A stretch of DNA of 64,000 nt from Isoetes taiwanensis (lineage: Eukaryota; Streptophyta; Lycopodiopsida; Isoetales; Isoetaceae), in NCBI GenBank assembly GCA_021234155.1, contig JAJEKV010000837.1, positions 17,857 through 81,856 on the forward strand, written 5' to 3'. Made by a program: the position numbers and the translations under genes. Position 1 is the stretch's first letter; the number at the start of each line of letters is the position of its first letter. Below, one piece after another: positions 982 to 46,779 of this stretch. The notes beneath the pieces were generated by a model. The model saw only the letters and a program-made list of their open reading frames with translations, did not search any database and was not told the origin of the DNA.

Positions 982-2811
982 CTAGTAATGGTGCCCAGCG
1001 TTGCTGGGCAAATGTTGGGAACATTTGTGGATGGAAACCTATTCAGCTTAGACTCATTAACCAAGTCCATCATATCTAGGCTATAAGAGGTTTTTGTGCA
1101 TTTGATAACCTTCCCTTTGCTCTATCCTGCATATCCTTTTTTCCTCATTTTCTTACACACTTTCTTTTTTCCCTTTTCTTATTTTTCCTGCACATTTACT
1201 TTTCTCCTTCTCTCTCTTTTTCTTTTCTTTTCTTTTTTACCCTCTTCTCCCTCCTCTTTTCCTTCCTTTTCTCCTTCTCATTTTTCCCTTTCCCTTTCCC
1301 TTTTTTGACGTCTTTTTTCCTTCACTTTTCACCTTTCTCCACCCTTCAAATTTTTCTCATGCTCTTTTTTCCCTTTCCTTTTCCCATTCCTTTTGCTTTT
1401 CTCTTCTCCCTTCCCTTTTCTCATGCCCTTTTTCCATTCCCTTTTCCCCACCTTTTTTTCTATGTTTTTCTTCCTCTCCTCACCCTCTTCTTCTTTATCT
1501 CATGTCTCTTTTTTCCCATTTTCTTCTTCCTTTTTTTCTCATGCCTTTTCCTTTTTCCTTCCCCTTTCCGCCTCCTCTTTCTTTTTCCCTTTCCTTCTTT
1601 TTCATCATTTCCCCACCCTTTCCTTTTTTCAGTACCCTTTTCCTCTTTCCTTCCCCTTCCTTTTCTCTTTCCCTTTCCCTTTCCTTTTTCCTTTTCCCTT
1701 TTCCCATGTATTTTTCCATTTCCTTCCACTTTTTTTACTTGCCTTTTCTTAGCCTTTCCTACCCTCTTCCCCCCTTTTCCCGTCCCTATTCCCTTTTTTT
1801 TCTTTTTTTCCCCTTTCCCTATGCTCTTTTCCTTTATTTTTACCCTTTCCTCACCCTTTCCCTCTTCTAGTTTTTTTGTGCCCTTTTTCCCTTCCTCTTT
1901 TCTATTTTCCCTCCTTATTCCTCGTGTTCTTTTTTCTTTCCCCTTTCCCCTTTCGCCTCCCATTTCCTTTTTCCTTTTCCTTCTTTTTTTCATCCTTTTC
2001 TCTTTTTCCATGCCCTTTTCCTCTTTCCTTTCCACCCTTTTTTTTTCCTTCTCTCTTTTCCTTTCCATTTCCCACACCTTTTCCATTCCATTTTTTCCAC
2101 CTTTTCACATGCCCTTTTTCCTCCTTTTCCCACCCTCTTCCCCTTTTCCCTTTTTCCTCTTTTCCTATTCCATGTTTTACGTTTCTCTTTTTGCTTTTCG
2201 CTTTTCCTTTTCCCTTTTTTTCCATCTCTTTTCCCTTTTCTTTTTTTTCCTTTCCTCACCCTTTTCCTCTTCTCGTGCCACTTTCTCCTTCCTCTCTCAT
2301 TTCCTCTCCCTTTTCCTCATGCCCTTTTCCTTTTTTGCCTCCTTTTTTCCTTCTTCCTTCCTTTCATGTTTTTTCCATGCCCTTTTTTTTTTCCTTCTCT
2401 CCATCATTCTTATCTTCCCCTTTTTCCCTTCCATCACCGTTTAGTCTTCACCTTTTTCCGTTGCCCTATTTTTCTTCCCTTTTCCTCCCTTCCCCTTTTC
2501 TTTTCCCTTATTCCATCCTCACCCTTTCCCCTTTTCCTTTTCATAGTGTCCTTTTTTCCTTCCTTTTCTCCATTTCTTTTCTTTCCTTTTTTAGGTGCTC
2601 TTTTCCTTTCCTTTTCCTTCTCGAGTCTTTCCCTTTTACCCGTGCCTTTTTTCTACGCCATTTCCCTTTCCTCTTAAGAGTCCGGACATGGCCAATCCAC
2701 GGTGGTGGGAAGTTGTCGCGATAAATCTCGGCCTTGAATGCAATCGGGCGATCTCAACTATCTAAATTAGGGTTTGATTGAAGACATACGCTAAAACTTT
2801 ATAATATAAGA
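982..2811 (-). mobile_element. Helitron H1, non-autonomous, polypurine type
   Basis: On the minus strand the element starts TCTTATATTATAAAGTTTTA (2811 downward) and ends with hairpin GCCCAGC-AAC-GCTGGGC (1009-993) and CTAG (985-982). The flanks are A on its 5' side (2812, read on minus) and T on its 3' side (981), the expected A^T Helitron target without duplication. Its 1,830 bp hold no Rep/helicase frame, so it is non-autonomous. Both ends, and almost the entire body, match H5 at 28065-29901 closely, which suggests recent movement. The long plus-strand frames rich in F, P, S and L are compositional artefacts. Confidence 0.9.
1110..2675 (-). repeat. Polypurine tract of H1 (pyrimidines on plus strand)
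   Basis: About 1.57 kb is nearly pure C/T on the plus strand, hence G/A on the element's own sense strand. Modules such as CATGCCCTTTTCC and CACCCTTTCC recur at irregular intervals, so this looks like a decayed tandem repeat rather than a simple microsatellite. Mirror-symmetric stretches could form triplex DNA; that is inference. Confidence 0.9.
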
Positions 2812-3259
2812 TGGTGATGCATCATATTTATAAGAGGTAATTTAGGACTGCATCTCATGCTAGCATCTTAGTGATGAAATTTTTTCTTACTTCTTCATAT
2901 GGGTTAAATAATTCATAAGCTGAGGTATCGGCTTTCCGAGTCAACGACCCATAGCTGCAAATCTATTTCCGCGACAAAGGATTTCTTCTGTGCACGCCTT
3001 TCCATTTTCAAATTTGGGTGGGGATAATATGTGACTCCTTTCCATTTTCAAATTTGGGTGGGGATAATATGTGACTAATGGGCTCGAATCACAATACAAG
3101 CACCTATAATGGAAACCTTTGATCAATTGACCATTCAATAGATAGGACTTTTGATTTATTGAGCACTTAATAAATTTGTATTGAGTCACGCCTGTTAGAC
3201 CATCAGGTCCATAGACGAGAAAAGTTACATGCATGTTTTTTGGTCAACTGAAAAAAAAG
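2812..3259. other. Non-coding spacer with a 40-bp tandem duplication
   Basis: A 40-bp segment containing TTTCAAATTTGGGTGGGGAT is repeated head-to-tail at 2997-3036 and 3037-3076. The rest shows no gene. A minus-strand frame over 2941-3234 has no recognisable domain. Confidence 0.6.
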
Positions 3260-3891
3260 GGAAAAACTAACAAAACTAGACCTTACACATCAAGGTCTTT
3301 TTGCCATGTAGTAAAGGTCGGTAGCTCTTTCCTTGACTGTCATAATCTTGAAGATACATACCAAGTTTTATAAGCTGGTAAATTCAAAAGCTTCGTGAAA
3401 AGAATCGCGGTGATATCATCTTTGTGCCCTTAGGTAGTCAAAAGGCGAGGCAATGGAGAAGAGCATGTCGTTCATCTTCTACTTGAGCATCTAGGCAACA
3501 AGGACAAAAGCGCCAATTCCGTGGCATATCTGCTCTCGTCCCACCTCAATTTCTAGTCTCGTGAACTTAGAGGCATGCAAGAAGCTTAAAAGCTTTCCTC
3601 TACTAAACTTACCATTTAAATAATCTGCTTCGCCATAGACTACCATTGCATTTTACTTCTTCCCTGTAAAAGTTTCTTTTTGTCCCAAGATCTCCAACTG
3701 GCCACAATTTCAACAAAGATTTACCGGTCACTAAATCTCGAATCCCTATACTAGATGAAGGTAGATCATCCAGTCCAATGCCCCAATAGCCTGCCCACTC
3801 TTCTAAATACTTATACCATCCCACATGGGATTGGATTTTAGATTCTTGCAAGGCTTGTCTCGGCAATCTGTGGTCTTCTAATTTTTGTATT
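3260..3891 (-). pseudogene. LINE A, 3' part: C-terminal reverse-transcriptase region
   Basis: Minus-strand translation gives a typical C-terminal plant LINE segment. It includes IQKLEDHRLPRQALQESK at about 3890-3840 and, further 3', a Cys/His cluster with WRFCPCC (about 3510) and EDERHALLHC (about 3470). The same LINE continues on the far side of the Gypsy insertion at 16877-17430, so the two pieces are one element split by it. The frame is broken by stops and small indels. The exact 3' end near 3250 could not be fixed. Confidence 0.7.
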
Positions 3892-5302
3892 TGTTGCCAC
3901 AATTCCTGGCTCTATTGGGCAACTATTCTGTTTTGGTACAGAACCTCCAGAACTAGTCTTAAGGGCCTAGTTCCACCCTTCAAAACAAGGCTTTAGAAAA
4001 TAGGCAAGTTTCCTTCTCTCTATTTCAAAAGAAGGAATTGCACACGTGATGTAACAAGCATTCAGATAGTATAGTTTTTGTTTTCCTTGTAGGGTGCACA
4101 CAAGATCCAAATTCCCCACCTCTGTTTCAAAGAAGAGAAATGAATCTGGAAAACAATGTACGTCACCTTCTATTTCTTTGGCAAAAAGGGAATGCTTTAG
4201 TATGAAAGTCTTTTGATTCAAATTCTCCACCTACGTTTCAAAAAGAAATGAATTTGGAAGAATAGTGTGCTCCACCTTCCGTTTCTTTGGATTAAAGAGA
4301 ATGATCGGGTATGCAAGTCTTTGTTCAAATATGAAGGATATTTTTTTGCAAAATGCACAAAGATCAAAGATCCAAGTTCTCTCCCTCCTTTTCAAAGAGA
4401 AATGGTTACGGGAGAACAATATTTCGATCCTAGGGGAGAATCCTTGTGTAATTAGTATCTGAAAGGGCAAAGCAATGGTATATGGGAAATCAAAGAAATT
4501 GAAAAATTATTGTGTGCCGAAATTATAATTTTAGCATTAGGAAAAGGGCCAAAAGGAAATCGGAATAGGCTCCTAGAGTGAATTCGAAGGAGACTCTAGA
4601 CCAACATGAACATATCCAATGCATATGAAATCAACACAGCTTGAATTGAATAGAATAGAAATATAACAGTTCAATAACCCGGTTTTTGAAGAAAACATAG
4701 ATGGAAACGAAGCTCTTCTTGAATCCCGTTCCCCTGTAACTGAGTGCTTCCTGATCTTTATGCTTTTCGAAAAACACATACCAACAAACCGTACCTGGCA
4801 TCCCATAACTGCAGATGCAACTTCCCTCCACGAATCCGTTATGAGACAAATTTCGGCTCCAACGGTTCAAAATCGATTAACCCTAATTAATTTTTTGTTG
4901 CTTTTTCGTCCTTTCCATTTCTTCACTTGTTGTTTTTCCTTTTTTTTTTTTCTTCAATAGTCGAAAATGCCTTCAACAACTAAAACCAGAGATAAAACTA
5001 GCTAGCAACTATGAGCCTAGAGTAACTCTCCTTTTTTTTTTTTCTTTCTCTTTTTCTCCTTTTTTTTTCTCTTTTTCTAATATCCTGCAAGTATACTGTG
5101 CTGTGGTAGCACCCCCACAGCCATGAATATGCTCTGGCAATTTCATGAGGTGATCCAACTCACCAGGTCTTCAACCATCCTCTGCCACTTCAAATGCTTA
5201 CTCCAACATCTCCATCATCCTCAGCTTCAAGTAAACCTATAAAAAGATACATGCCCAAAAAATGTAAGTAAGGTGGATTTTGTTGCCTGTTCCCAGGCAA
5301 CA
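3892..5302 (-). repeat. 3' LTR of the Gypsy element
   Basis: This 1,411-bp LTR starts TGTTGCC and ends GGCAACA, a 7-bp terminal inverted repeat. It matches 12391-12668 plus 15754-16876 throughout, with many small indels. T-rich runs on the plus strand lie at about 4938-4955 and 5030-5075. The short frames inside it are not genes. Confidence 0.88.
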
Positions 5303-5344
5303 TGATGCCCAAAAAAACATTGGGCTGGTCCCCTCAGCCCTGAA

Positions 5345-6560
5345 TATTTCTAAATCCAGTATTTCTTCAGGAGATAAGCATTCACAGGATGAGGAAGTGG
5401 GTGTAGCTGCATATCTGTAAGAAAATAAGAGTTAGTACCAGCATTGCTTTGAACAAAAAATGGCCCTTCCCACAAGTGTGCAAATTTGGGAGGCATTTTC
5501 TCTTGAGCCCTGTTCCACTTAAGCACAAGTTCCCCTTTTTGAAACTGATTTTGTATCCTATTGTTCCTCATGAATGTGGCGACTTCTTTCTTTTTTACGA
5601 GCTTGTGATTTGCTCAAGTGCTTGAGCCCTTCAACCGATCTAATGCTTCCAATAGCATCAATCTATCTTCCACTTTGCTTACATTCTTGATACGGATTGC
5701 TGACATATTAGCTTAAAATTTTGGAATTTCAATATGAACTGGAAGAATGGCTTCAAGCCCATAAACTAATTCAAATGGAGTATGCCCACAGCTATTTTAC
5801 GGGTGGTTCTAAATGCCCAAAGGGCATTGGGTAGTGAGATGCCAATCATTTGAGATGCATTGATTTTTTTTTTTTTTAGGATGCCTTTCAAAACCTTGTT
5901 GGGCGATTACGTCCATCCATTACCAGGGGTAATAAAGGCGAACTCTTGGTGTGCTTGATTTTGAGTTGCATGGTCAATGCTTGCATAGTATCGTTCATAA
6001 GCAGCTGCCTCTATCGATAGAAGCTTTTGAGGCACTCAACACGCAACAAATGTGAGTAAATATGAAGGAAGGCGGTACTTTACGGCGGTTGCCTCCTTAA
6101 TGGCGACTTCCACCCATTTGGTAAAGAGATGCATTGCTGCAGAATGTATGCATGTTGTCCGGATGATGGTGGCTCTATCTTCCCTATGAAGTCTAATCCC
6201 CAACATTGGAGCGGTCAGGGAAATGATCCCCTTCAATGATTCCGGTTTGTAGGGTTCTTCTCAGTGCAATTGGCATTTTGACACCGTTTAGTGTGCTCGT
6301 GGCGATCTCTCGAACATGGTAGGCCAATAGTAACACTGCCTTGATATTTTCATTCTTTGTGGTATCTGAAAAGTGCCCTCGCCAAATGCCTTCGTGACAA
6401 TCCTGCATCACCAGTTCCTGTTCTTCTTCGTCTAGGCATCTGAGGTAAATCCCGTTTCTATCTTTCTTGCATAGAACATCACCAAACATGGCAAACCCTA
6501 AACATTTTTCCTTGAATCTCCTAATTGCACTCTTGGTCAAACCTACAGCGTGATTTGATG
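5345..6560 (-). pseudogene. Gypsy integrase region
   Basis: Reading 5' to 3' on the minus strand there is a zinc-binding-like start with HEGIWRGH (about 6390) and LLAYHVRE (about 6320). The catalytic-core segment follows, with LFTKWVEVAIKEAT (about 6120-6080). Then comes the core's end, with PNALWAFRTT (about 5820). A C-terminal segment at 5571-5350 contains the GPFFV pattern typical of integrase C-termini. Several frame breaks separate the parts. Integrase would insert the cDNA into the genome; this copy cannot be made intact. Confidence 0.8.
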
Positions 6561-6885
6561 TTGCAAAAATTTTTGCGTGGTGCCATCAAGTGGTTTTCTG
6601 CCACTATTATATTCAAGTATGTTTGAGGGACGTCCTCTTAAAGCGGTGATATCATGAAAAAAAGCATAAGGCAAAGTATAGGCTGGGGTCTAAACACCAT
6701 CAAAAGTTTCCACTTGCGGATCAAACACGGATAACAGCGCCCCACCGTAAAGTTTGTCCTTTTTCTCCCCCTTATTGAACAAAATCTTGATAGGGTTATG
6801 CTTCATATAAACAATAACCTTTTGATTGTAAAATAAATAGCCATACTTATCCACCAGAAGTATCAACCCTGTTGCATATTTCTCA

Positions 6886-6901
6886 TACTTGGGGTATCTT
6901 T
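6886..6901. repeat. Target-site duplication, left copy
   Basis: This 16-bp repeat matches 8641-8656 exactly and flanks the 6902-8640 retroposon. Confidence 0.88.
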
Positions 6902-8640: not shown

Positions 8641-8656
8641 TACTTGGGGTATCTTT
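8641..8656. repeat. Target-site duplication, right copy
   Basis: This is the right-hand partner of 6886-6901. Gypsy pol sequence resumes immediately after it. Confidence 0.88.
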
Positions 8657-9560
8657 CCTCTGCATTGGTCCATTGTTTACCAGAATAAGCAATTGCTCTT
8701 TTCCTTGTATTAAAGCTATACCTATAGCTTTAATGGTGGCAAATGATATAGACATGGAATTCCCCTTCAATATTTGGAGATCCTAAAAGGCTGGTTCAGG
8801 CTAAGAATCATAATAACACTTTCAAAAAGCTTCTTGACATTCTTGGGTCAGAGAATGGAAAGCGTATTTGCTCTTGCCTTTCTCTACATGTCCTAAGTGT
8901 GAGTTTTGATATAGGATTGATAATATGTGCAAAATTAGGAACATGCAACCTCAAGAAGCTCATCATACCTATCAAGCGTTTTACTTCCTTCAAATTGCTT
9001 TCGATTGGTGGGCCGCTACCTTGTCTTCACCACCTGAATTCCCCGGCTGAAACTTCATGGCCAAGCAACAATCCCTTTTGGGTCCAAAAATACATTTCTT
9101 AGGGTTAAGACACAGCTGAAATCCACTGCCCACGGGGAGGCACAATTGTCTGATCATGTTGAGATGGTCTTCTCTTGTAGTCGCCAAACACAAATCATCA
9201 AAGAAATATTACGAAATTCTTGGAAGGCATGGTTGAACACTGTATCCATTGTCCTTTGGAATGTCGAAGGTGCATTCATAAGCCCCAAAGGGCATCCTTT
9301 TCATAACAAATGTCCCCATGGCGTAATAAAATTTTATTTTCGGTTGGTCATCCGCCTTCACACCGATTTGATTAAAGCCGAAAAATCCATCCGGGAAAGA
9401 ATATCACGGATTTACACCTTCTGACATGCAAGACCTCTTGAGAAAGAATTAGCGGATAGAAATCCTTGAGGGTTGCCTTGTTGAGTTCACGATGTCGGCG
9501 CAAATCCTTAAACTTCCATTTTTTCTTGTTTTGGGTACAATGCATGAAACCCAAGTGGGG
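8657..9560 (-). pseudogene. Gypsy reverse transcriptase (and start of the following RNase H)
   Basis: The minus strand encodes KKKWKFKDLRRHRELNKATL (9530-9465), the start of the RT fingers-palm region. Downstream are TTREDHLNMIRQL with LNPKKCIFG (about 9190-9090) and the thumb-side segment MMSFLRLHVPNFAHIINPI (about 8960-8910). A stretch related to connection/RNase H, AIGIALIQGKEQLL (about 8730-8690), follows. It is cut by the retroposon at 8656 and resumes below 6886. Multiple frameshifts are present. The role in life would be copying the element RNA into DNA. Confidence 0.82.
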
Positions 9561-9929
9561 TTTATTATTTTCGCAATAAGACCCGCCAGACCAACATCTT
9601 TTCTATTTGAACTTGAATCAAGGGCAATAAGGCTGGGTTTATTCTTCTCAATTTTGCACTAACTGGAGTTGCCCCAGGTTTTCAGTTTTAATCTCAAACT
9701 CCACGGACATGCGTTGGTATACCCTTGACTCATCATAATCCCAGCGGAATATGCGACATTTCTTGGAAGCGTCTTTTGTAGAATTTGTAGGTCTTCCTGC
9801 TCGATGTTCATCCCAACGCCACTTGTCTTGCCTTCCCATTTTTGTTACCAAAATTTGCTGCACATTTGTTTCTTTGCTTGTGTAATCTATCACCAAAATA
9901 GGGTGCATGTATCTCGGGGCATTTTCACG

Positions 9930-10960: not shown

Positions 10961-11065
10961 ATACTGTCTTGGATGATACAAAGTTAGTGGCACAATATTC
11001 TTGATCTTCCTCCACAAAGCTTGAAGAGTTGTTCCCTATACTTTGGAGCCCACTTTGAGTGCGTC

Positions 11066-12349: not shown

Positions 12350-12365
12350 TGCTCACGGAATCAAA

Positions 12366-15465: not shown

Positions 15466-15499
15466 ATGCTACGACACACCGCTACATCGATACTCGCAT

Positions 15500-17430: not shown

Positions 17431-17471
17431 GCTCCCAATTTATGCCCAGCAACGCTGGGCACCTTTACTAG
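17421..17471 (+). mobile_element. Helitron A 3' terminus
   Basis: ACATTTACAGGCTCCCAA is followed by hairpin GCCCAGC-AAC-GCTGGGC (17444-17460) and CTAG (17468-17471). The last ~50 bases match the 3' end of H4 (27964-28013). No 5' end of this copy was found upstream, so LINE A and its nest may lie within Helitron A, or the element is truncated. Confidence 0.8.
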
Positions 17472-17609
17472 TCTTATATTATAATGTTATACCGTAATTC
17501 TTGGATCAAGCCCTAATTTGAATGGCCAAGATCATCTAGGTGCATCCAAAGGCCGATATTTCTCGCACAATTTTTTACCACTGTGATTGGTCATGTTTTG
17601 ATATCTTAT

Positions 17610-19440
17610 AAGGAAAGGGTAAAGGAAAAGGGAGGAAGAGGAAAAAGGAGGAGAAAAGAGAGAATGTGAAAGGGCAAAAGGGTACGGGGAAAAGGAAGAA
17701 AGGGAAAGGGAAAAGGGTGGGGATAAGAGAGGAGAAAAATGCATGGGAAAAGATAAAGGGCAAGAAAAAATCAAAAGGGTGGGGGTAAGGCAACCTGAGA
17801 AAAGGGTACGAGGAAAAGGGGAAGAGGTAAAGGGGAAAAAGGAAGGGGAAATGGCATAGGAAAAAGAGAAAGAGTGGGAAAAAAGGTGAAGAATGGGAAA
17901 AGGAAGAAAACGAGCATGGGAAAAGGAAAGGGAAAAAGAGCATGCATATGGGAAAAAGGAGAAAACGGAAAAGGGTGAGGAAAGAAAAAAAAGGAAGGAA
18001 AAAATGGCATGGAAAAGGAAAAGAGAGAGGGAAATGTAAGGAAAAAGGGGCACCGAGAAAAGGAAAGGAGTAAAAGGTTGGGAAAATGAGGAAAAGGGCA
18101 TGGAAAAGGGGGAACAAGAAAAGAATGAAGAGAAGGGAAGGGAAAAAGGGCATGGAAAAAGGAAAAGTGAAAGGAGAAAGAAAAAGGGAGGGGAAAAGGA
18201 GGAAATGGAACCCGGAAAAAGGGCATTAAAAAAGGGGAAGAGGGAAATGAGAAAAGAAAAAGGGGAAGGGGTAAGAGAAAAAAGGGAAGACAAAAAGGGT
18301 GAAGACAGGGAAAAAAAGAAGCGAAAAAAAAGACATGGAAAAAATAAAAGGAAAGGGTAGGGGAAAAGAGGAAAATGGGCAGACAAAAAGAGGAAAGAGA
18401 AAAAATGTGGGAAAGGCATGGGAAAAGGAAAGAAAGGGAGAAAGGGTGAAGGAAAGGGAACAAGAGGAAGAGGGAAAGGATCCGAAAAGGAGGAAAACGG
18501 AAAGAAAAAAGTCCATCAGGAAAGGGAATGGGAAAAAGGCCAAGAAAAGGAAAACGGGGAAGGTAAAAAAAAAGAGGATAAGGGAGGGGAAAAAGGGGAA
18601 CGAGAGAAGGGTGAGGAGCAAGAGATTGAAAAAGAGGAAGAGGAAGGGGAAAAGGGCATGGGAAAAAAGGGAAGAGAGAAAGGGTGAGGAAAGGGGAAAA
18701 AGAGCTTGGGAAAAGGAAACAATAAAAACAAATGAAGGAAAGGGGAAAGTGGAAAAGGGAAAAAGGGGAGAGGGTGGGGAAAGGAGGAAAAGGGGCACAT
18801 GAAAAGGGTAGAGAAGAGGGATTGGAAAGAGGCATAGGGAAAGAGAAAATGAGAAAAAAGGAGAAGGGAAAGGGAAAAAGAGCATGGAAAAAAGCGAAAG
18901 GGTGGCGAAAGAATGAAAAATAAAGGAAAATAAAAGAGCAAAAGGAAGGTGGAAAGGGGGGAAGGGAAGGAAAAATGGGCAGAAGGAAAAGGGGAGAGGG
19001 AAATGGGAAAAAAGAAGCAGAAAAGGGCAAGGATAAAGCGGAAGATGATGGGAAAAAGAAGAAAAGGGGCACTGAAAAGGTGGAGAAACGAGAAGAAAAA
19101 ACGGCATGGGAAAAGGGAAAGTGAAAAGGAAAAGAAAAAGGAAAGGGAAAGGGGAAGGAAAAGGAAAAGGGAAAGGGAAAAATGGGAAGGCGGGAAAGGA
19201 TAAAAAGTGTGAAAAGGGCCGTTAGAAAAAAGGGAATGGAAAGAGGGAAGGGAAAAAGGGAAAGGGAAAAGGAAAGGGAAGAGAAGGGGATAAAAAAAGG
19301 AAAAAGAATAAGGGAAAAAGAAGACATGTAGGAAAAATGAGAAAAAGGAAAAAGAAAAAAAGGAAAGTGTGTAGGAAAACGAGGAAAAAAGGGAAATGCG
19401 GGATAGAGCAAAAGGCAAAGGGAAGAGGAAGGGTGTCGAA
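17610..19440 (+). repeat. Polypurine tract of H3
   Basis: About 1.8 kb of nearly pure A/G lies on the plus strand, with recurring GGCATGGGAAAAGG and GGGTGAGGAAA modules. Apparent long frames on either strand are compositional and should not be annotated as proteins. Confidence 0.9.
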
Positions 19441-19465
19441 TGCATAAAAACCTCTTAAAGCTCAG

Positions 19466-19960
19466 CAATGCTGGGCTTTGGTTTCCCGGGGACTTCACCA
19501 TGTTGAACCAGTATGGACCAACATCGTGACTGATAGGGGGGTTTTTTATTGCCTAGGGGGTCCGTAGACGTATGGGTTGGCTGTACGGAAAACCAAGAAT
19601 TTGGAGTACTCCAAACGGAAGGGGTGGTGGGCGGGAAATGGCGCTCCCGCATGGATCCGGGTAGGGGTATAGGGCTTCAGGAAGCTTCAGGGGTAAGCCG
19701 AAAGCCTAGTAATGGCGGAGCTATGCAAAGTATGGCTGGACGTGGATCTCCTAATCAGGTCCGTGGAAATTATAAGTTTTAATCTTAATCTTTGGTAAAA
19801 CCCAAAGTATGGCGGATCAAATCAGAAGATAAGTTATATGAATACTCAATAATATAGCTCGCTTTTAATTGGGCTTCAATATATGGTTTCTATGACTTAT
19901 TTCTGTAATCTTTTCCTTTTGCGGATGAAATCCAAATTTTATGATTTTGTCCTGTGTTAC
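19466..19960 (+). other. Captured segment of unknown origin
   Basis: GC-richer DNA follows a degenerate hairpin GCTCAGCAATGCTGGGC (19459-19475). A plus frame at 19549-19782 is open for 77 codons but shows no recognised domain. It is absent from H1, H5 and H6, so I infer host DNA acquired with the DGAT2-like fragment. Confidence 0.45.
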
Positions 19961-20059
19961 ATGAGTTTCTTTGTATATCTTAGCCTCTTGGGCCAATAGT
20001 TGCAAAAAAGGTGCAGCGTTTTCATTTCATGTTCTATATTATCGTTTTCATTGTGTTTG

Positions 20060-21090
20060 AAACCATGTTGGCAAGCAACTTTTGCTTCATGTCTTCCGTT
20101 ATTCATTCGTAACATCATATGTATTTTTCCGAAGGCCCTTGCTACACCAATATTGTGCCACATCCGGACATGGATGGGTTCTATTCCCGCATCAAGGAAA
20201 GTCTTTACACAACCCCCGAACGATGGTTGTTCGTTGTTGTTCCTGGTGGTGTTCGTGAAATCTTTTATATGGAATCGGACATGAGGTCGATAATGAGAAA
20301 CCTACATTAGCTATTATTGTGCTAACTATTCTTCTAAGACTTTCTGAATTCATCGCCGTGTAGCATTTTGAAACAACGATATGGGTTTGTTCGGGTTGCT
20401 ATTGAAACTGGAGTAATCAGTTGGTACACATCTTGCATTTTGGGCGTGTATTCTATTGCTAGTTATTTTGGGGCTCTAGTCAAAAGCAAGGAAAAGAACA
20501 AGTGAGTAATTTAGTATGCAATAAATGTTTGAAATTATTATGGGACTTTTTTCATATTGTATTAAGTTGTGATGAGTTAAGGAGCTATGCCAAAACAATG
20601 GATTTCAATGTTGTTTTTAGATCGATGTATACTGTGGTGGTGGAAGCCAAGAGGAAAATTTATTTATGGGTCTCAAAGAGCACTTAAATTTACTCCTTGA
20701 TATTTTGGGGGGAAGATATGGGTATGTAACATCATATTGCCATTATTCATCCTCCATTTATTCCTCGTTGTTTAAGTAGGAATTTCCACTTCAAAGTAGT
20801 TAAAGACATGTGTAAATTTGTTTTCAGATCTCCGTTCCATATAGGCGACCATTATACATTGCTGTTGGGAGCCCCATTGAAATGACAAAAATCCTCGCCC
20901 AAGAAAGATGAGGTAATTTAATTTGTCTTAGCTTTTGTAGATTTCATTCACAAGTAATTTTTTTATCTGTTGTTTCAGTTGCGGGCTTTGTGCTTTCAAA
21001 GTTTATACAAGCTATTGAGGAGTCAGACGTATCGGAAGCACAAGGCAAACCGCTTGGATTCAAAGATACAATACTTCATGTATATTAAGC
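20060..21090 (+). pseudogene. DGAT2-like acyltransferase gene fragment captured by Helitron H3
   Basis: Motifs of type-2 diacylglycerol O-acyltransferase, an ER enzyme that makes triacylglycerol from diacylglycerol and acyl-CoA, appear in order across three frames. They are IRTWMGSIPASRK (20145-20200), VVVPGGVREIFYM (20232-20272), RYGFVRVAIETG (about 20379-20415), SQRALKFTP with YFWGRYG (about 20673-20720), PYRRPLYIAVGSPIEMTKI (20837-20893) and KHKANRLDSK (about 21035-21065). Two intron-like gaps with GT and AG borders (about 20722-20827 and 20913-20979) lie at plausible places, so this is genomic rather than retrotransposed DNA. The N-terminal half is missing and frameshifts break it. A related DGAT2-family acyltransferase is possible. 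Confidence 0.72.
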
Positions 21091-21860
21091 GGCCGCAGGG
21101 TTATTCCATAACATTGTTTCACTTTATCTAGCTTGCCAAGAGAATCACTGCCAGTATTCCCCGAATCAAGTCATGATGTTCAACTATTTGTTTGGGGTAG
21201 TGCTGGCATAAGATTTGTTAGTTTATGTACAGTGTCCGACAAGATCATATGCTTAGTGAACTATTTTCAGAAAATGGTTGAAATGCCTACAATTTATACT
21301 CCTCTACATATTGATAAAAACTTTTGTTTGTGCATGTGGTTAGATTCTTCCTTATGGTTGGGGAGGATAAATGTTCTTGTGATGTATTTATTCTTTGTAA
21401 AGGTTGTGTCCATTGTGGTGTTTATTTTAACAGCTTGCCTAACTTCGAGGGTGAAACTTTCTCATCCACGTGTCCCTCCACTTTATCCGGCACAAAGATT
21501 CATTGTGTGGATCAAAAATTTAATCCAACCAAGCACCTTCTCTGGTCGAACTAGCTTAGCTAGCCCTTGTAATGACTAAAAAAATATTCAAAAAATGACC
21601 ATATGTGCTACAAGGGCTAGGACTTTTCTTATGGTGTCCAGTATATGTATGGGAAAGGGTATATGGATTGCTAGTTGGGACTGGAGTACATGTACGGATA
21701 AGGGGCCAAAATTAAAATTCATATATGCACGTATGGTTGGGGGTTTCACCAAAAAAGTTAGACAGGGGTTTGGGGCCGACCCCTTGCACGCACATGCCAT
21801 ATGCTCTATATAAAGGGGTGAAGCCCCCGGGTTTGGTTTCTATTATATTAGGTTTATAAA
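21091..21860 (+). other. Remaining captured or 3'-flanking DNA in H3
   Basis: A plus frame (21133-21579, 148 codons) and overlapping frames show no recognised domain. The segment is probably downstream sequence of the captured gene. The native Helitron tail starts at about 21861. Confidence 0.4.
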
Positions 21861-21936
21861 AATGAGTCTGAGCTTAATAGTTTTCGTCCACACAAATTCT
21901 GAACTCATGCCCAGCAACGCTGGGCACCATTACTAG

Positions 21937-25860: not shown

Positions 25861-28013
25861 TCTTATATTATAATGTTATACCGTAAGTGCGTAGTGCATC
25901 AAGCCCTAATTTGAATGGCCGAGATCATCTGGATGCATCCGAAGGTCTATATTTATTGCACGACTTACCAACACTGTGATTGGTCATGCTTCGATCTCTT
26001 AAGGGGAAAGGGTAAATGAAAAGGGGGAAAAGGAAAAGGGAAGTGGAAAGAGAGAATGTGAAGGGCAAAAAGGCATGGGGAAAAGGGAAAAGGGTAAAAG
26101 GAAAAGGGAAAAAAGAAAAAAGGAAAAGAAAAGGAAAAAGAGAAAGGGTGGGGAAAAGAAAAAGGCATGGGGAAAAGGAAAAAGGCAAAAAGGAAAAGGG
26201 AAAAAAGAAAAAAGGGAAAAAAGGAAAAGGGAAAAAGGAAAAGGGAAGTGGAAAGAGAGAATGTGAAGGGCAAAAAGGCATGGGGAAAAGGGAAAAGGGT
26301 AAAAGGAAAAGGGAAAAAGGAAAAAAGGAAAAGGAAAAGGGAAAAAGGAAAAGGGAAAAGAAAAGTGAAAAAAGGAAAAGGGAAGTGGAAAAGAGAATGT
26401 GAAGACTTAAAAAAGGCATGGGGAAAAGGAAAAGGGTAAAAAGGAAAGGGAAAAAGGAAAAAGGGAAAAGAAAAAGGAAAAAAAAAAGGGTGGTGAAAGG
26501 AAAAGGCATGGGGAAAAGGAAAAAGGGAAAAAGGAAAAGGGAAAAAAGAAAAAAGGGAAAAGAAAAGGGGCAAGAGAGAAAGGGTGGGGAAAAGAGGAAA
26601 ATGGGTATAGGAAATAAGAGAATAAAACAAATGTGCAAAAGGCATGGAAAAAGGGAAAAGGAAAAGGAAAGGAAGGAAAAAGTACTTGTGAAAAGGATGG
26701 CAAAGGAGGAAACGCGAAAAAAAAAACCCATCAAGAAAAAAAGCGGAAAAAGGGAAAGGGAAAGGGAAGCAGGGGGTGATGGAGGGGAGGGAAAGGGAAA
26801 AAGGACATGAGGAAAGGAAAAGAAAAAGAAAAAAGGAAGGGTTGAAAGAAGGGAAAAATTGCATGGGAAGAGGGAAAGGGTGGGAAAAGGAGGAAAAGGA
26901 AGCGGGAAAAATAGAAAGAAGAAAAAGGTGGGAAAAAGGGGCATGGGAAAAGGGAAATAGAAAAGAAAAAAGAATTGAAAAAGGGAGAGAGAGGCACGGG
27001 GAAAAAGGAAATTTAAAAATGGAAAAGGGAAGAGAAAAGGGGAACATGGAAAAGGGAAAGAGGGAAAGGGTGAGGAGATGGAAAAAGGGAAGATAAAAAG
27101 GGCATGGAAAATGGGAGCGGGAAAAGAAAATGGAAGGAAAAGGGCACAAAAAAAAAGGAGAGAAAAAAAGTGGGAAAAGGAGGAAAAAAAGAGAAGGGAA
27201 AATAGGCATGGAAAAGAGCGAAAGAGTAAAAGGTTGAGAAAAAGGGAAGACATGGAAAAAAGGTGGGGAAAAGAGAAGGCATAAAAAAAGAGAAAGGGGA
27301 AGGGAAAAGGGCAAAGAAAAAAGAGAAGAGGGAAAAGGTGGAGAAAGGAGCAAAAGGGAAGGGAAAAAGGTTATCGGGAACAGGGAAGGGGGAAGGAAAG
27401 GGATGGGAAAACAAGGAAACATGTGAGAAAGACACATGTACTCCAAATGGAGATTGGAAGCGGTGGACCATTGAGATAACTATGTCCTTATGGTTTGTCC
27501 TAAATCCATGATGCACTATAGGACATTCTAATCTAGATGACTAATCCTACCACCATGCATTACGGAACAACTCACAGTGGCAACCATTATATTGCAAAGA
27601 GATACCATATTTCTAGGAATACTTATGTAGTGGTAGCTGCCACTAATGCATATGACGTAGTTGCATTAGATAGAAGGTGGCAAATACTCTAAATTAGCTA
27701 TTGTTTACAGGGTATGCAGCCATGGATTAATACGCTTTTTGTGTCTTCCAATTCTAGACTACCTTTTTGAACCTTTCAATGTCTTATGTGAATAGATAGG
27801 CTTTCATCACCATTTGCAATCCTTATCCTTAAACTTCTAATAAAAAAATGTGGGCCAAATCTATGCACCTTTATATTTATACAAGTCGAAGTGAACGTCC
27901 ATAGGACTTCTACAAGAAAAGGGAAAGGGAAAGGGATATGGCTTTTCTCGTTGCATCCTAAAGCATTTACAGGCTCTCAACTTATGCCCAGCAACGCTGG
28001 GCACCATTACTAG
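25861..28013 (+). mobile_element. Helitron H4, polypurine type
   Basis: The 5' end TCTTATATTATAATGTTATA follows A at 25860. The 3' hairpin (27986-28002) and CTAG (28010-28013) precede T at 28014, giving the A^T insertion. At 2,153 bp it is non-autonomous. The 5' end belongs to the H3 subfamily and the last ~50 bases to the Helitron A type. A ~550-bp non-purine segment (27420-27965) lies between the purine tract and the terminus. Confidence 0.9.
26003..27415 (+). repeat. Polypurine tract of H4
   Basis: About 1.4 kb of A/G on the plus strand. The first ~500 bp show the clearest internal repetition, with GGCATGGGGAAAAGG recurring at about 26074, 26166, 26278, 26417 and 26507. This suggests local tandem amplification with variable periods of roughly 90-140 bp. 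Confidence 0.9.
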
Positions 28014-28064: not shown

Positions 28065-29901
28065 TCTTATATTATAAAGTTTTAGCGTATGTCTTCAATC
28101 AAACCCTAATTTAGATAGTTGAGATCGTCTGATTGCATTCGAAGGCCGAGATTTATCGCACAACTTCCCACCACCGTGATTGGCCATGCTCCGATCTCTT
28201 AAGAGGAAAGGGAAAATGGCAGAGAAAAGGCACGGGTAAAAGGGAAAGACGGAGAAGGGAAAAGGAAAGGGAAAAGAGCACGAAAAAGGGAAAGAAAAAG
28301 AAATGGAGAAAAAGGAAGGAAAAAAGGACACTATGAAAAGGAAAAGGGGGAAAGGGTGAGGACAGAATAAGGGAAAAGAAAAGGGGAAGGGAGGAAAAGG
28401 AAGAAAAATAGGGCAACGGGAAAAAGGTGAAGACGGAAACGGTGACGGAAGGGAAAAAGGGGAAGATAAGAATGATGGAGAGAAGGAAAAAAGGGCATGG
28501 AAAAATAGAAAGGGAAGGAAGAAGGAAAAAGGAGGCAAAAAAGGGAAAAGGGCATGAGGAAAAGGGAGAGGGAAATGAGAGAGGAAGGAGAAAGTGGCAC
28601 GAGAAGAGGAAAAGGGTGAGGAAAGGAAAAAAAGAAAGGGAAAAAGAGATGGAAAAAGGGAAAAGGGAAAAGCGAAAAGCAAAAAGAGAACAGAAAACAT
28701 GGAATAGGAAAAGAGGAAAAGGGAAAAGGGGAAGAGGGTGGGAAAAGGAGGAAAAAGGGCATGTGAAAAAGGTGGAAAAAATGGAATGGAAAAAGGTGTG
28801 GGAAAATGGAAAGGAAAAGAGAGAAGGAAAAAAAAAGGGTGGAAAGGAAAGAGGAAAAGGGCATGGAAAAAGAGAAAAGGATGAAAAAAAGAAGGAAAAG
28901 GAAAAAGGAAATGGGAGGCGAAAGGGGAAAGGGGAAAGAAAAAAGAACACGAGGAATAAGGAGGGAAAATAGAAAAGAGGAAGGGAAAAAGGGCACAAAA
29001 AAACTAGAAGAGGGAAAGGGTGAGGAAAGGGTAAAAATAAAGGGAAAAAGAGCATAGGGAAAGGGAAAAAAAAAGAAAAAAGGGGAATAGGGACGGGGAA
29101 AAGGGGAAGAGGGTAGGGAAAGGCGGAAGAAAAGGCAAGTAAAAAAAAGTGGAAGGGAATGGAAAAATACATGGGAAAAAGGGAAAAGGAAAAAGGAAAG
29201 GGAAAGGGAAAGAGAAAAGGAAGGGGGGAAGGAAAGAGGAAAAGGGCACGGGAAAAAGGGAAAGGGTGGGGAAATGATGAAAAAAGAAGGAAAGGGAAAA
29301 GAAAGAGGGAGGCGGAAAGGGGGAAGGAAAGGAAAAAAGGCATGAGAAAAAAGGAAGAAGAAAATGGGAAAAAAGAGACATGAGATAAAGAAGAAGAGGG
29401 TGAGGAGAGGAAGAAAAACATAGAAAAAAAGGTGGGGAAAAGGGAATGGAAAAAGGGCATGAGAAAAGGGAAGGGAGAAGAGAAAAGCAAAAGGAATGGG
29501 AAAAGGAAAGGGAAAAAAGAGCATGAGAAAAATTTGAAGGGTGGAGAAAGGTGAAAAGTGAAGGAAAAAAGCCGTCAAAAAAGGGAAAGGGAAAGGGAAA
29601 AATGAGAAGGAGAAAAGGAAGGAAAAGAGGAGGGAGAAGAGGGTAAAAAAGAAAAGAAAAAAAAAAGAGAGAGAAGGAGAAAAGTAAATGTGCAGGAAAA
29701 ATAAGAAAAAAGGGAAAAAAAAGTGTGTAAGAAAATGAGGAAAAAAGGATATGCAGGATAGAGCAAAGGGAAGGTTATCAAATGCACAAAAACCTCTTAT
29801 AGCCTAGATATGATGGACTTGGTTAATGAGTCTAAGCTGAATAGGTTTCCATCCACAAATGTTCCCAACATTTGCCCAGCAACGCTGGGCACCATTACTA
29901 G
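28065..29901 (+). mobile_element. Helitron H5, polypurine type
   Basis: The 5' end TCTTATATTATAAAGTTTTA follows A at 28064. The 3' hairpin (29874-29890) and CTAG (29898-29901) precede T at 29902. Its 1,837 bp are nearly identical in structure to H1 on the opposite strand, including the 3' tail CTAGATATGATGGACTTGG. It holds no transposition gene, so it must be mobilised in trans. Confidence 0.92.
28203..29770 (+). repeat. Polypurine tract of H5
   Basis: About 1.57 kb of A/G on the plus strand, matching the complementary tract of H1 almost base for base. The F/P/S-rich minus-strand frame of 445 codons is not a credible protein. Confidence 0.9.
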
Positions 29902-44008: not shown

Positions 44009-44021
44009 AGGGCATTTTTTT

Positions 44022-44045: not shown

Positions 44046-45006
44046 CGCTACCAAGCACGTCATGGCAATAGGCCATTATATGGACACCACTTTGCGGTTT
44101 AGATTAGCATGCAAATGATGATGCTCACATAGGTATACCATGCAAAGTGTGCACCATGCACCGAGCATCCACACATGCATGCATTCACTTGCATGGCGCC
44201 GGAATGGGGGGGCACGACTTGTCTTTGTGCGTTATGCATGTGGAATTAGAGGATGAACCATAAGAGATCACTGAGAGCAAGCCGACCTAATGCAAGCCAA
44301 CCCTTCCTCGCGTAGCGTGGGTTTAGAAACACAGTTGATCTTGAACCGCGACGAGCTAATTCCCAAGGAAATTTACCCGCGCCTCTCCGTATTGGGAAAA
44401 TTACGAATGCATCCTGAGGCGCAGGTGTTTTGCCATAATGGAAATAACTTTTTTTCTGGCTCATAAAATGAGAAAATTTAAGCCCATTTTGCGATAGATA
44501 GAGGAGACTAAGACCTTTTGAAGCGGCAGTAAAAGGTCATATCAAACATGAGTTCAGATCTTCGACTTATAGTGTTTTTATCGTTTTGTTTAGGTGGATA
44601 AACAAAATAAAACAACCAATGTACAAAAATAAGGACCCTCCTTTAAGTTATCTGGACCACGAGAACTTAAGGACCCTCATAGTCCGAAGCCCGAACTTCA
44701 ACGCCCATTCACACAAATCTGGACTTAATGTGGTACATCCAATGATGAAAGATTCCAACTTGTATAAAATGCATGTGCACATTGTAAAGGCAAGATTTCT
44801 GGATCACGAAGTTTCATCAATTAGTAATGTTCGCCCAGAGGCGACTTTTTAGACCAAATTGTTTGGTCCATAATTCAATAGAACTTGTCCTTGTCTACCT
44901 TTTGCAAATCGTGGTAAAATTGGGTTTAAATCCGGATAATGTTAAAATTACCATGGAACCGATGCCCAAGAAGCTACTAAACAAAGGACAAATCGAGCCC
45001 TTTGCA
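44046..45006 (-). repeat. Tandem unit c, right part (non-coding half)
   Basis: The array consensus resumes after the transposon as CGCTACCAAGCACGTCATGG and runs to CCCTTTGCA at 45006, where H6 inserts. The RY motif CATGCATGCA is at 44174-44183. This half lies upstream of the gene copy at 34376-34941, which the transposon has separated from its promoter. Confidence 0.88.
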
Positions 45007-46779
45007 TCTTATATTATAAAGTTTTAAGCTTTATGTCTTGCATCAAACCCTAATTTAGATAGTTGAGATCGCCGATTGCATTTGAAGGTGAGATTTATCA
45101 CACAACTTCCCACCACCATGATTGGCCATGCTCGATCTCTTAAGAGGAAAGGGAAAATGGCGTAGAAAAAGAACAAAGTGAGAGGCAAAAAGGCAGATTA
45201 AAGCGGGAAAGATCGCGGAGAAGGAAAAAGGAAAGGGAAAAGAGCACGAAAAAGGGAAAGAAAAGAAAGGGAGAAAAAGGAAGAAAAAAAGACACTATGA
45301 AAAGGAAAAGGGGGAAAGGGTGAGGGCGAGAATAAGGGAAAAAAAGAAAAAGGGGAAGGAGGAAAAAAAAAGAAAAAAGGGGCAATGGAAAAAAAATGTG
45401 AAGACGTTCCACGATGTGGAAGGGAAAAAGGGGAAGATAAGAATGGTGGAGAGGGAAAAAAAGGGCATGGAAAAAATAGAAAAGGAAGGAAAAGGAGGCG
45501 AAAAAGGGAAAAAGGGCATGAGGAAAAGGGAGATGGGGAAATGAGAGAGGGGGGAGAAAGCCATTGCAGAAGGAAAAGGGTGAGAAAAGGAAAAAAGAAA
45601 GGAAAAAGAGATGGAAAAAGGGAAAAGGGGAAAAGCAAAAAGAGAACAGAAAAACATGGAATAGGAAAAGAAGAAAAGGGAAAAAGGGGAAGAGTGTGGG
45701 AAAAGGAGGAAAAAAGGGCATGTGAAAAAGGTGGAAAAAATAGAATGGAAAAAAGGTGTGGGAAAATGGAAAGGAAAAGAGAAGGAAAAAAAAGGTGGAA
45801 AGGAAAGAAAGGAGGAAAAGGGCATGGAAAAAGAGAAAAGGATGAAAAAAGAAGGAAAAGGAAAAAGGAAATGGGAGGCGAAAAGGGAAGGTAAAGAATC
45901 ACTTTGGTTTAGGAATAAGGAGGAAAATGGAAAGAGGAAGGGAAAAAGGCGCGGAAAAACTGGAAGAGGAAAGGGTGAGAAAGGTAAAAATAAAGGGGAA
46001 AAAGAGCATGGGAAAGGGAAAAGAAAAAGAAAAAGGGAATCTTGGACCGGGAAAAGGGGAAGAGGGTAAGGAACCCAGGTTAAGAAAGGGAAAGGGAAAG
46101 AGAAAAGGGAAAGGGGAAGGGAAAGAGGAAAAAGGGCCCCGGGAAAAATGGAAAGGGTGGGGAAATGATGAAAAAAGAAGGAAAGGGAAAAGGAAAAAGG
46201 AAGGAGGAGAAAAGGGGGAAGGAAAGGAAAAAAGGCATGAGAAAAAAGAAAGAAGAAAATGGGAAAAAGAGACATGAGATAAAGAAGAAGAGGGTGAGGA
46301 GAGGAAGAAAAACATAAAAAAAAGGTGGGGAAAAGGAATGCAAAAGGGGCATGAGAAAAGGGAAGGGAAAAGAGAAAAGCAAAAAATGGGAAAAGGAAAG
46401 GAAAAAAAGATCTATAGAAAAATGGGAAGGGTGGAGAAAGGTGAAAAGGGAAGGAAAAAAGCAAAAAAAAAAAAGGGGAAAGGAAAGGGAAAAATGAGAA
46501 GGAGAAAAGGAAGAAAAAGAGGAGGGAGAAGAGGGTAAAAAAAAGAGAGAGAAGGAGAAAAGTAAATGTGCAGGGAAAATAAGAAAAGGGAAAAAAGAAA
46601 GTGTGTAAGAAAATGAGGAAAAAAGGATATGCAGGATAGAGCAAAGGGAAGGTTATCAAATGCACAAAAACCTCTTATAGCCTAGATATGATGGACTTGG
46701 TTAATGAGTCTGAGCTGAATAGGTTTCCATCCACAAATGTTCCCAACATTTGCCCAGCAACGCTGGGCACCATTACTAG
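45007..46779 (+). mobile_element. Helitron H6, polypurine type, with empty site in the same array
   Basis: The 5' TCTTATATTATAAAGTTTTA follows TTTGCA (45006). The 3' hairpin (46752-46768) and CTAG (46776-46779) precede TGAGAAAATAAAG. At the d/e boundary (about 48535-48550) the unbroken sequence CCTTGCATGAGAAAATAAAG shows exactly what existed before insertion: A^T, no base gained or lost. At 1,773 bp it is non-autonomous and a close relative of H1 and H5. Confidence 0.93.
45143..46640 (+). repeat. Polypurine tract of H6
   Basis: About 1.5 kb of A/G on the plus strand, alignable with H5 but with more interruptions (for example GTTCCACGATGTGG near 45405 and ATCACTTTGGTTTAGG near 45898). This suggests an older copy. 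Confidence 0.9.

Follow-up and report, generated by a model that had tools for sequence, protein, structure and literature searches.

Helitrons with a long polypurine tract of fixed orientation in the genome of Isoetes taiwanensis

Polypurine Helitrons in the window

The window, i.e. the whole stretch of DNA analysed here, comprises 64,000 nt of Isoetes taiwanensis (GCA_021234155.1, JAJEKV010000837.1:17,857-81,856, forward strand). It harbors five Helitrons (H1, H3, H4, H5 and H6), in all of which the 5' end TCTTATATTATAA and the 3' end GCCCAGCAACGCTGGGCACCATTACTAG are present without a single mismatch. The common ends and the positions that a sequence-only reading of this DNA had given for the five elements were thereby borne out. 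The features of the window are as follows.

982..2811, minus strand: H1, complete tract Helitron; exact ends at 982-1009 and 2799-2811; tract at approximately 1100-2679, pyrimidine on the plus strand; purine fraction 0.899 when read on the minus strand
17444..17471, plus strand: 3' end (hairpin and CTAG) of another family member, one mismatch to the 28-base 3' end
17472..21936, plus strand: H3, tract Helitron with an extra segment; exact ends; tract at approximately 17592-19453; purine fraction 0.899 over 17601-19400
19460..19476, plus strand: decayed copy of the 3' hairpin in H3, GCTCAGCAATGCTGGGC, directly after the tract
19480..21860, plus strand: segment of H3 between tract and 3' end, ordinary composition
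25861..28013, plus strand: H4, tract Helitron; exact ends; tract at approximately 25988-27448 (limits set by hand); purine fraction 0.914 over 26001-27400
28065..29901, plus strand: H5, complete tract Helitron; exact ends; tract at approximately 28192-29783; purine fraction 0.908 over 28201-29800
45007..46779, plus strand: H6, complete tract Helitron; exact ends; purine fraction 0.887 over 45201-46700
48520..48568, plus strand: empty paralogous site of H6, GAGCCCCTTGCA followed by TGAGAAAATAAAG, junction at 48543

The tracts of the five elements are 1.4-1.8 kb long, and the element parts outside of them contain approximately 0.5 purine. Pyrimidines occupy approximately 10% of the tract positions, often in motifs of the GGGCATG/GGGTGAG type, and the longest uninterrupted purine runs measure 60-74 bp. 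The tracts had been described as nearly pure purine over 1.4-1.8 kb; they are indeed long and consist of 89-91% purine, but "nearly pure" is slightly too strong. The purine-rich strand is the sense strand of the element in all five cases, including the inverted H1 with a plus-strand purine fraction of 0.101 (1101-2700), which confirms that polarity goes with the element.

H3 and H4 carry DNA in addition to the tract, an extra 2.4-kb segment in the former and approximately 0.5 kb in the latter. The 3' end at 17444..17471 abuts the 5' end of H3 at 17472 in a head-to-tail junction, and a search of 2812-17444 for the 5' end belonging to this 3' end, with up to four mismatches allowed, found none. 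The decayed hairpin behind the H3 tract is the sole site in the window with exactly one mismatch to the hairpin pattern (all other sites have 0 or 2), and we read it as a putative former terminator that was bypassed. The segment following it is probably captured host DNA. We take it to resemble a DGAT2-like (diacylglycerol-acyltransferase-like) gene, for which the Pfam search gave sub-threshold support in one of the three pieces submitted (PF03982, E 0.028, 13.8 bits, cut-off 22).

Helitron class and size of the family

Canonical Helitrons are defined by TC...hairpin-CTRR ends and insertion between A and T. In all five window elements the 5' end starts with TC and the 3' end is CTAG, which fits CTRR, with the hairpin GCCCAGC-AAC-GCTGGGC located 7 nt upstream of CTAG; this hairpin is present in the minimum-energy as well as in the centroid fold of the 3' terminal 150 nt of H5. 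No terminal inverted repeats were seen by inspection of both ends of the five elements. The host site of H6 belongs to a local tandem repeat with units of 1.75 kb, and three paralogous sites (23632, 48543 and 50295) are empty (...TGCA followed by TGAG...). Compared to them, H6 was inserted between A and T, and the target was not duplicated; its flanks match the empty site by 95% (44724-45007 vs 48263-48543) and 94.7% (46780 onwards vs 48543 onwards). Among 61 copies, the base 5' of the element is A in 49, T in 10 and G in 2; six of the ten T cases come from C1 copies that nearly share one flank. The base 3' of the element is T in 20 of 20. With A as 5' neighbour in 49/61, the T-rich or TT target characteristic of Helentrons and HINEs was not found. 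Hence, given the TC...hairpin-CTAG ends, the A/T insertion and the empty H6 sites, the five window elements are canonical Helitrons.

The family is very numerous in the Isoetes taiwanensis genome. The 13-mer of the 5' end has 2588+2559 genome matches (control 183+151), and the 28-mer of the 3' end, with up to two mismatches, has 2796+2878 (control 0).

A Rep/helicase partner sharing the ends, which had been proposed as a check, was found as well. It is a 7.8-kb element (C1036) whose 3' end is exact and whose 5' end deviates by one mismatch; it lacks the tract, and its open frame of 892 aa matches PF14214 (E 2.3e-61) and PF05970 (E 9.3e-59). The exact 28-base 3' end lies downstream of Rep in this one of the 12 Rep loci examined, and near variants were found at two others (C1105, C23). 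The tract Helitrons are presumably non-autonomous and would be moved in trans by such a Rep/PIF1-helicase Helitron. As a side observation, an integrase gene lies beyond the 3' end of the C1105 Rep element.

Distribution of the tract in the family

A non-random sample of 60 5' ends was collected, 56 of which were judged family members. A tract is present within 860 bp in 24 of these 56 and absent in 32. Among 20 sampled exact 3' ends, 12 lack a tract in the 2.2 kb preceding them, so that the tract is no defining trait of the family sharing this 3' end. The claim of a family built around the tract is contradicted by these 5' and 3' ends and by the tract-less Rep/helicase element. However, all 20 copies that were selected only by a 5' sequence ending before the tract do carry it. 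Only 24/56 family 5' ends are followed by a tract, which is thus characteristic of sub-lineages and not defined by the ends. Moreover, the tract shows purine on the sense strand in 24/24 tract-bearing 5' ends, in 8/8 tract-bearing 3' ends and in the 20/20 copies chosen by 5' sequence, and no tract of reversed polarity occurs among all tracts in the window and the sampled copies. A genome-wide comparison of copies with the same ends had been named as the test that could refute the association. In the sampled copies the outcome is divided: the ends by themselves are weakly linked to the tract, but polarity is never mixed and the link to sub-lineages is strong.

Tract rows have nearer relatives than tract-less rows, with a median nearest-relative distance of 0.08 (n=21) vs 0.17 (n=29; p 0.0013) in a comparison of non-independent rows with six C1 rows left out, which suggests a more recent or a denser spread of the tract rows. 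The 3' end was detected in 6/10 H5-type copies, within 2 kb in 3/10 clade B copies (L110, L115 and L116; not in the other seven) and, with the end pattern applied to L096, L097 and L098, only in the last one; L095, the extended version of the tract-less L080, shows no 3' end in 3.25 kb. Furthermore, an inverted copy of the 5' end was noticed at C5:111525, outside the element at C5:111641.

Origin of the tract

In the tree of sampled 5' ends, two clades (A and B) carry the tract and are separated by tract-less clades, which needs four changes of the tract label, at least three by starred branches. This pattern could mean two independent origins of the tract, one in each 5' clade, with convergent polarity. 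The motifs also differ between the clades: clade A tracts often begin with CTCTTAAGAGG followed by AAAGGG and contain GGCATG/GGGTGAG, whereas in some clade B rows CAATATG precedes AAAGGG and CGATG occurs inside the tract. Nevertheless, we regard two origins as unlikely in view of the similarity between the clades. Cross-clade local alignment scores lie 3.2-10 s.d. above those of order-3 Markov resamples in six of six pairs, compared to only 0.6-2.2 s.d. for reversed-sequence controls. Shuffling of 50-bp blocks, which keeps local motifs and breaks their order, reached the observed score in 0/40 trials in all seven cross-clade pairs, and shuffling of 150-bp blocks in 0/40 trials in six of the seven. 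The 3'-subterminal sequence AATAGGTTT...TCC.CA is apparently also common to H5 and L092a, as judged by eye. According to these alignments, the tracts of clades A and B are homologous with a common order, and common descent accounts for the fixed polarity. The pattern is better explained by one tract that became linked to different 5' ends, or by an ancestral tract that other lineages lost, than by two origins.

The homology is not sharp everywhere. Within clade A, the scores of pairs such as H5-H4 (z 2.6) and L049-L058 (z 2.7) are not higher than those of the weaker cross-clade pairs, and the L049-L058 score was reached by 3/40 and 5/40 block shuffles. The wide span of cross-clade alignments was dropped as evidence for collinearity, since resampled and reversed tracts align equally wide.

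Mutation in the tract and the favored explanation

Nine near-identical copies were aligned over 1515 tract and 223 flank columns. The tract contains 340 gap runs and the flanks 1, i.e. approximately 48 times more gaps per base in the tract, in a low-complexity alignment in which shared gaps count once per copy and assembly errors may contribute. Substitutions are not lowered in the tract (82/1515 vs 9/223 columns); its transversions changed purine to pyrimidine in 20 cases and in the reverse direction in 1. Selection for purine was not visible in the transversions either, with 87/8893 tract vs 8/1879 flank sites summed over ten non-independent pairs of the five closest copies, and singleton counts agree that transversions are not reduced. 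An earlier count had given an excess of transitions (41/410 tract vs 1/146 flank sites), which largely disappeared with nine copies and another filter (61/1515 vs 7/223), and it probably reflects mostly shifted run lengths. Between some lineage pairs, only about one tenth of the tract sites pass the alignment filter. The copies analysed are mostly dead insertions, and their substitution rates are uninformative on selection in the source copies.

In H4 and in clade B, the 5' side of the tract shows recent local duplication; in H4, a 341-bp unit is repeated 2.0 times at 26007-26682. Local repetitiveness was predicted to go along with purine content, but the correlation is weak: rho is 0.28 (p 0.016; 71 windows, 14 elements), and 0.17 (p 0.32; 35 windows) when each subfamily is represented by a single element.

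We consider it probable that a slippage-prone purine minisatellite was acquired once and that non-autonomous Helitrons carry it as filler. A degenerate, minisatellite-like polypurine module of the AAAGGG/AAAAGG type would have entered the family a single time and would have been inherited in one orientation in elements of approximately 1.8-1.95 kb, with 5' ends of at least two types and 3'-subterminal sequences of two types. The Rep/PIF1 Helitron would mobilise the tract elements in trans, while source copies could gain purine DNA by slippage and local tandem duplication faster than point mutation erodes it, and the element may simply tolerate the tract between its 5' end and the 3' hairpin. 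Polarity then needs no function, because it is copied along with the element. Pure drift explains less easily that tract length and a purine fraction of approximately 0.9 are alike in two diverged lineages.

If the tract is only filler, the transposon spreads a few Mb of strand-asymmetric, slippage-prone DNA and seeds fast-evolving purine repeats, the amount being a very rough estimate of 2,000 copies x 1.5 kb that extrapolates 24/56 from a non-random sample to approximately 4,800 ends. Furthermore, one tract behind different 5' ends suggests modular recombination of Helitron parts, or an old and often lost tract.

Possible functions of the tract

The tract could have a cis function. In one version, it would be a selected part that stays unfolded as single-stranded DNA during rolling-circle transfer, which keeps the 3' hairpin dominant and termination clean; in the other, its potential for triplexes or RNA:DNA hybrids would open the duplex. 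Polarity would be required if the tract were such a part. In either version, a cis function is unlikely. As DNA, three sense-strand pieces of the H5 tract, each 150 nt long, have folding energies of 0 to -1.2 kcal/mol. The 150 nt at the 3' terminus reach -17.9, those at the 5' end -9.8, and two stretches of H3 -7.8 and -15.5 kcal/mol. The identical polarity of all sampled tracts as well as the nearer relatives of tract rows (0.08 vs 0.17) would also suit a cis-acting part. However, dinucleotide shuffles fold equally little, i.e. the low folding is due to composition, the transversion rate in the copies is not reduced, and the tract is not required, as the Rep/helicase element and 32/56 family 5' ends lack it. 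G-quadruplexes gave no support for such a part: with 0-5 sense-strand motifs per tract vs shuffle means of 0.6-2.6 in 11 elements, the counts generally stay within the dinucleotide expectation, and only H4 exceeded the highest of 50 shuffles (4 vs 3), approximately half of the tract being covered in H4 and H6. A G-quadruplex reading of the tract is thus unsupported. The more far-reaching proposal that the module is a functional cis-element, whose kilobase of structure-free or triplex-forming sense strand raises transposition in trans, which for this reason was passed between 5' lineages and which caused their more recent spread compared to tract-less ones, is rather unlikely. If the tract does have a role, tract-bearing and tract-less elements with the same ends make the cis requirements of Helitrons testable.

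It appears very unlikely that the purine tract and the telobox-like CCCTAA close to the 5' end together form a chromatin signal (Polycomb/siRNA) by which the element is better tolerated. CCCTAA occurs in the first 80 bases of 17/24 tract-bearing 5' ends, but also in 19/32 tract-less ones, and the short motif is therefore not tied to the tract. The fuller AAACCCTAA was found in 6/24 tract-bearing and 0/32 tract-less 5' ends; these six are a minority of the tract rows and close relatives. In the nine aligned copies, G>A changes in the tract outnumber A>G changes (43 vs 13), as expected if the cytosines of the pyrimidine strand are methylated.

An assembly or sequencing artefact is extremely improbable. 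Oddities around CG in some copies (H1 and L034, by eye) suggest base-calling errors, but the same structure recurs with different flanks in dozens of copies, including contigs >20 Mb, which refutes an artefactual origin of the tract itself.

Comparison with known Helitrons

The family resembles canonical plant-type non-autonomous Helitrons in its ends, hairpin, target, lack of target duplication (H6) and Rep/PIF1 partner, as well as in the host-like extra segment beside the 3' end and the head-to-tail junctions. It differs from them in the polypurine interior of 1.4-1.9 kb with fixed orientation. No described Helitron with such an interior was recognised among the matches listed, a weak negative result as most subscription journals lie outside the coverage.

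Going by the titles of Coates et al. 2010 and 2011, lepidopteran Helitron-like elements and MITEs are associated with microsatellites of the (GAAA)n or (GTCY)n type; as in the present family, a mobile element and simple repeats occur together. As far as the 2010 title tells, the microsatellite there is the disrupted target, whereas the purine tract here is internal.

DINE-1/HINE elements, the partners of Helentrons, are described in PMC4067079 as having subterminal inverted repeats and a preference for T-rich targets. They are likewise non-autonomous rolling-circle elements, and their interior can hold micro- or minisatellites (PMC4067079). In contrast to their T-rich targets as given there, the present elements have CTAG ends and an A/T target, and the degenerate purine module makes up >80% of complete elements without extra segments.

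Maize Helitrons carry captured host sequences, according to PMC13317346. H3 fits both the tandem Helitrons of bat and silkworm and the gene-carrying Helitrons of maize; nothing essential differs, and its composite structure is ordinary.

The tract elements and their insertion sites

The sequence-only reading had described five Helitrons, each with 1.4-1.8 kb of nearly pure purine on the sense strand. Their ends proved exact, and they are listed here with two local tandem arrays:

982-2811, minus strand, Helitron H1
17472-21936, Helitron H3
25861-28013, Helitron H4
28065-29901, Helitron H5
45007-46779, Helitron H6
46780-53191, local tandem array, unit of ~1.75 kb, ~95% alike
55855-62291, local tandem array, unit of ~1.1 kb, ~88% alike

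The purine fraction is 0.887-0.914 in the five tracts and ~0.5 outside them within the same elements, which bears out the tracts and their strand. However, "nearly pure" means about 90%, because the longest pure runs are just 60-74 bp. Tandem Repeats Finder reported many short degenerate purine units inside the window tracts and a 341-bp unit, present twice, in H4. The complete length is 1,773-1,960 bp in 18 tract elements with both ends located and no large extra segment (including copy L104, whose 3' end has one mismatch, and copy L098, whose entry is 3 bp too long).

The tract elements are canonical Helitrons. The 5' end begins with TC, and the 3' end consists of a hairpin with a 7-bp stem, seven further bases and CTAG. 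Of 61 family 5' ends (56 sampled, five from the window), 49 are preceded by A, and T follows all 20 sampled 3' ends. H6 is located inside one unit of the 1.75-kb repeat, and three empty paralogous sites (23632, 48543, 50295) read ...TGCA/TGAG..., hence H6 was inserted exactly between A and T (at the slash) without duplication. H3 (ending before 21937) and H6 (ending before 46780), which are different subtypes, stop at the same nucleotide of paralogous 1.75-kb repeat copies, and the sequence after both 3' ends is alike (TGAGAAAATAAAGAAGTCG). Either one site was hit repeatedly by insertion, or something less simple took place.

Distribution of the tract in the genome

In the searched genome (1.66 Gb, 1,110 contigs), where the window spans 17857-81856 of contig C594, the exact 5' 13-mer occurs 5,147 times compared to 334 times for a reversed-pattern control, and the 3' 28-mer with up to 2 mismatches occurs 5,674 times compared to 0 for its control. 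By a fixed rule, 60 of 100 listed 5' sites were sampled, of which four (L023, L036, L064, L067) were excluded because by eye they are not family 5' ends; these are tract-less. A tract (150 bp or more of purine, sought within 860 bp) was found in 24 of the remaining 56, a share of 43% that is not an unbiased genome estimate, since the sites are the first listed, on contigs C1-C38. Of 20 exact 3' ends, eight follow a purine tract at a distance of no more than 2.2 kb. The family is thus not "built around" the tract as had been proposed, since 32 of the 56 5' ends and 12 of the 20 3' ends are without it. The proposed fixed polarity did hold, as all tracts among sampled and 5'-selected copies are purine on the sense strand, and no pyrimidine stretch of at least 150 bp was found among the 60 sampled 5' sites.

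For wider searches, the first 126 bp of H5 and the first 120 bp of copy L031 served as queries, both of which stop before the tract; these listed 40 scored matches each, out of 1,748 and 1,016 candidates, respectively. Ten of each 40 were fetched, and all 20 (contigs of 0.5-53 Mb) carry the tract with purine on the sense strand, shortened in L101 and L102 and interrupted in L100.

On contig C1, seven 5' ends follow in succession (815274-830596, spacing 2.4-2.7 kb). The 20 bp before the 5' end are nearly identical in six fetched C1 copies (L001-L006, C1:758497-831443, four from this cluster), which looks like duplication including flanks; three of the six have a tract stretch, the other three do not.

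Descent of the tract

A tree built for 61 rows from their 5' 115 bp places the tract-bearing rows in two clades, 22 of 28 rows in clade A (with the H5 type) and 7 of 7 in clade B, with tract-less rows between them. Tract-less rows L003-L005, from the C1 tandem cluster, lie inside clade A, and L027, L077 and L080, likewise tract-less, are attached to it by a long branch. The tract label needs four changes on this tree, at least three of them by well-supported branches, and the tract onset differs between the clades. Such a pattern could be read as two independent tract origins. The tracts themselves were compared with L048, L049, L055 and L058 added, whose 5' ends are nearest clade A (L049 only at 0.18). 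Cross-clade scores were 3.2-10 s.d. above order-3 Markov resamples in six of six pairs (15 resamples each), with reversed-sequence controls at 0.6-2.2 s.d.; a repeat with 40 resamples gave 6.6-11.7 s.d. in four cross-clade pairs (one new). Block shuffling of one tract, by which motifs survive but lose their order, reached the observed score in 0 of 40 trials for all seven cross-clade pairs with 50-bp blocks, and with 150-bp blocks solely for L058-L092a (2 of 40). Hence, the tracts of both clades are homologous and share their order, and two independent origins, improbable from the outset, became slightly more so. For L049-L058, both nearest clade A, block shuffles reached the score in 3 of 40 and 5 of 40 trials; some pairs within clade A are thus hardly above controls, which indicates that the tract evolves fast.

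These alignments are most simply read as one tract of common descent, which now occurs with different 5' ends and 3'-subterminal sequences (by eye, AATAGGTTTCC-type in H5 and CATTTACAGGCTCTC-type in H4, L056 and L058). Given common descent, the elements would have inherited the polarity, which then does not count separately as a sign that it is required.

Change and proposed maintenance of the tract

Nine near-identical H5-type copies were compared over ~1,573 tract and ~224 flank positions of H5. We counted 340 gap runs in the tract versus 1 in the flanks (~48-fold per base). Over 1,515 columns the tract showed 61 transitions plus 21 transversions; the flanks, over 223 columns, showed 7 and 2, respectively. 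These counts indicate that copies lose purity at the ordinary point-mutation rate, while lengths change very fast. As judged from the majority base, 20 of the 21 tract transversions are purine to pyrimidine. In H4 and in clade B, internal duplications of recent date cluster at the tract's 5' side; here the second 300-bp window attains a purine fraction of 0.92-0.96. The general correlation of local repeat content with purine content is weak and loses significance when each subfamily is represented by a single element. Slippage in source copies would keep regenerating purine DNA, a model that is supported, not proven. The tract is a real, unusual Helitron interior, which single origin, inheritance and slippage explain well enough. 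No described Helitron like this lineage was recognised in the open literature searched, itself limited in coverage.

By eye, H1 and L034 show many small differences from H5 at CG dinucleotides. These look like base-calling errors, not evolution, and may inflate divergence.

Candidate functions of the tract

As single-stranded DNA, three 150-nt sense pieces of the H5 tract fold with 0 to -1.2 kcal/mol each; shuffles fold as little, so the low folding is a matter of composition. G-quadruplex motifs were not in excess over dinucleotide shuffles, except marginally in H4. Triplex formation, R-loops and chromatin effects are further, hypothetical roles. Nearest relatives are closer for tract-bearing than for tract-less 5' ends, which means that the former spread recently or densely and does not imply a cause. 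In copy L022, the inverted 5' terminal 13-mer is found at base ~122-134, the border of 5' region and tract, so that a stem could form within the element's first 130 bp.

A putative Rep/helicase partner

A Rep-domain search gave at least 150 matches over the cut-off, among 1,813 candidates, and 12 loci were fetched. Only that on contig C1036 has the exact 28-base family 3' end downstream of Rep. Its open frame of 892 aa comprises Helitron_like_N and PIF1, and with an upstream piece the element measures 7.8 kb. A candidate for the suggested Rep/helicase partner therefore exists, with ends that are nearly, not fully, the same (5' end with one mismatch, 3' end exact). It has no tract, as no 200-bp window (100-bp step) exceeds 72% purine or pyrimidine.

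The Rep loci on C1105 and C23 have near variants of the 28-base 3' end. On C23, locus L092 (C23:221000-228400) contains a pair of tract elements whose 5' ends face each other across 11 bp. Beyond the pair comes a Rep domain and, ~3 kb downstream of this domain, a family-type 3' end that adjoins a further tract element head to tail; a 5' end matching this Rep domain was not found. In two Rep elements (L085+L093, L083+L094), 114 bp separate the true 3' hairpin from an imperfect second one upstream, ACCCAGCAGCACTGGGC, which may be an older terminator. On the 3' side of the C1105 Rep element and outside it, a 496-aa open frame on the opposite strand (L083, 839-2329) presumably resembles a retrotransposon integrase.

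The extra segment of H3

Directly after the H3 tract, at 19460-19476, lies a hairpin that differs from the 3' hairpin by one mismatch, followed by ~2.4 kb of ordinary composition and then the true 3' end. In the end-bypass model, a terminator is bypassed and downstream sequence acquired. We read the hairpin as a bypassed former terminator and the 2.4 kb beyond as picked up by read-through. This segment may resemble a diacylglycerol acyltransferase gene, with a Pfam match below threshold. One study links tandem arrays to bypassed termination (PMC4067079). Another 3' end (17444-17471) directly adjoins the 5' end of H3, and such direct 3'-to-5' junctions were found for H3, L037 and L113, i.e. in 3 of 81 family 5' ends with inspected flanks (56 sampled, 5 from the window, 20 chosen).
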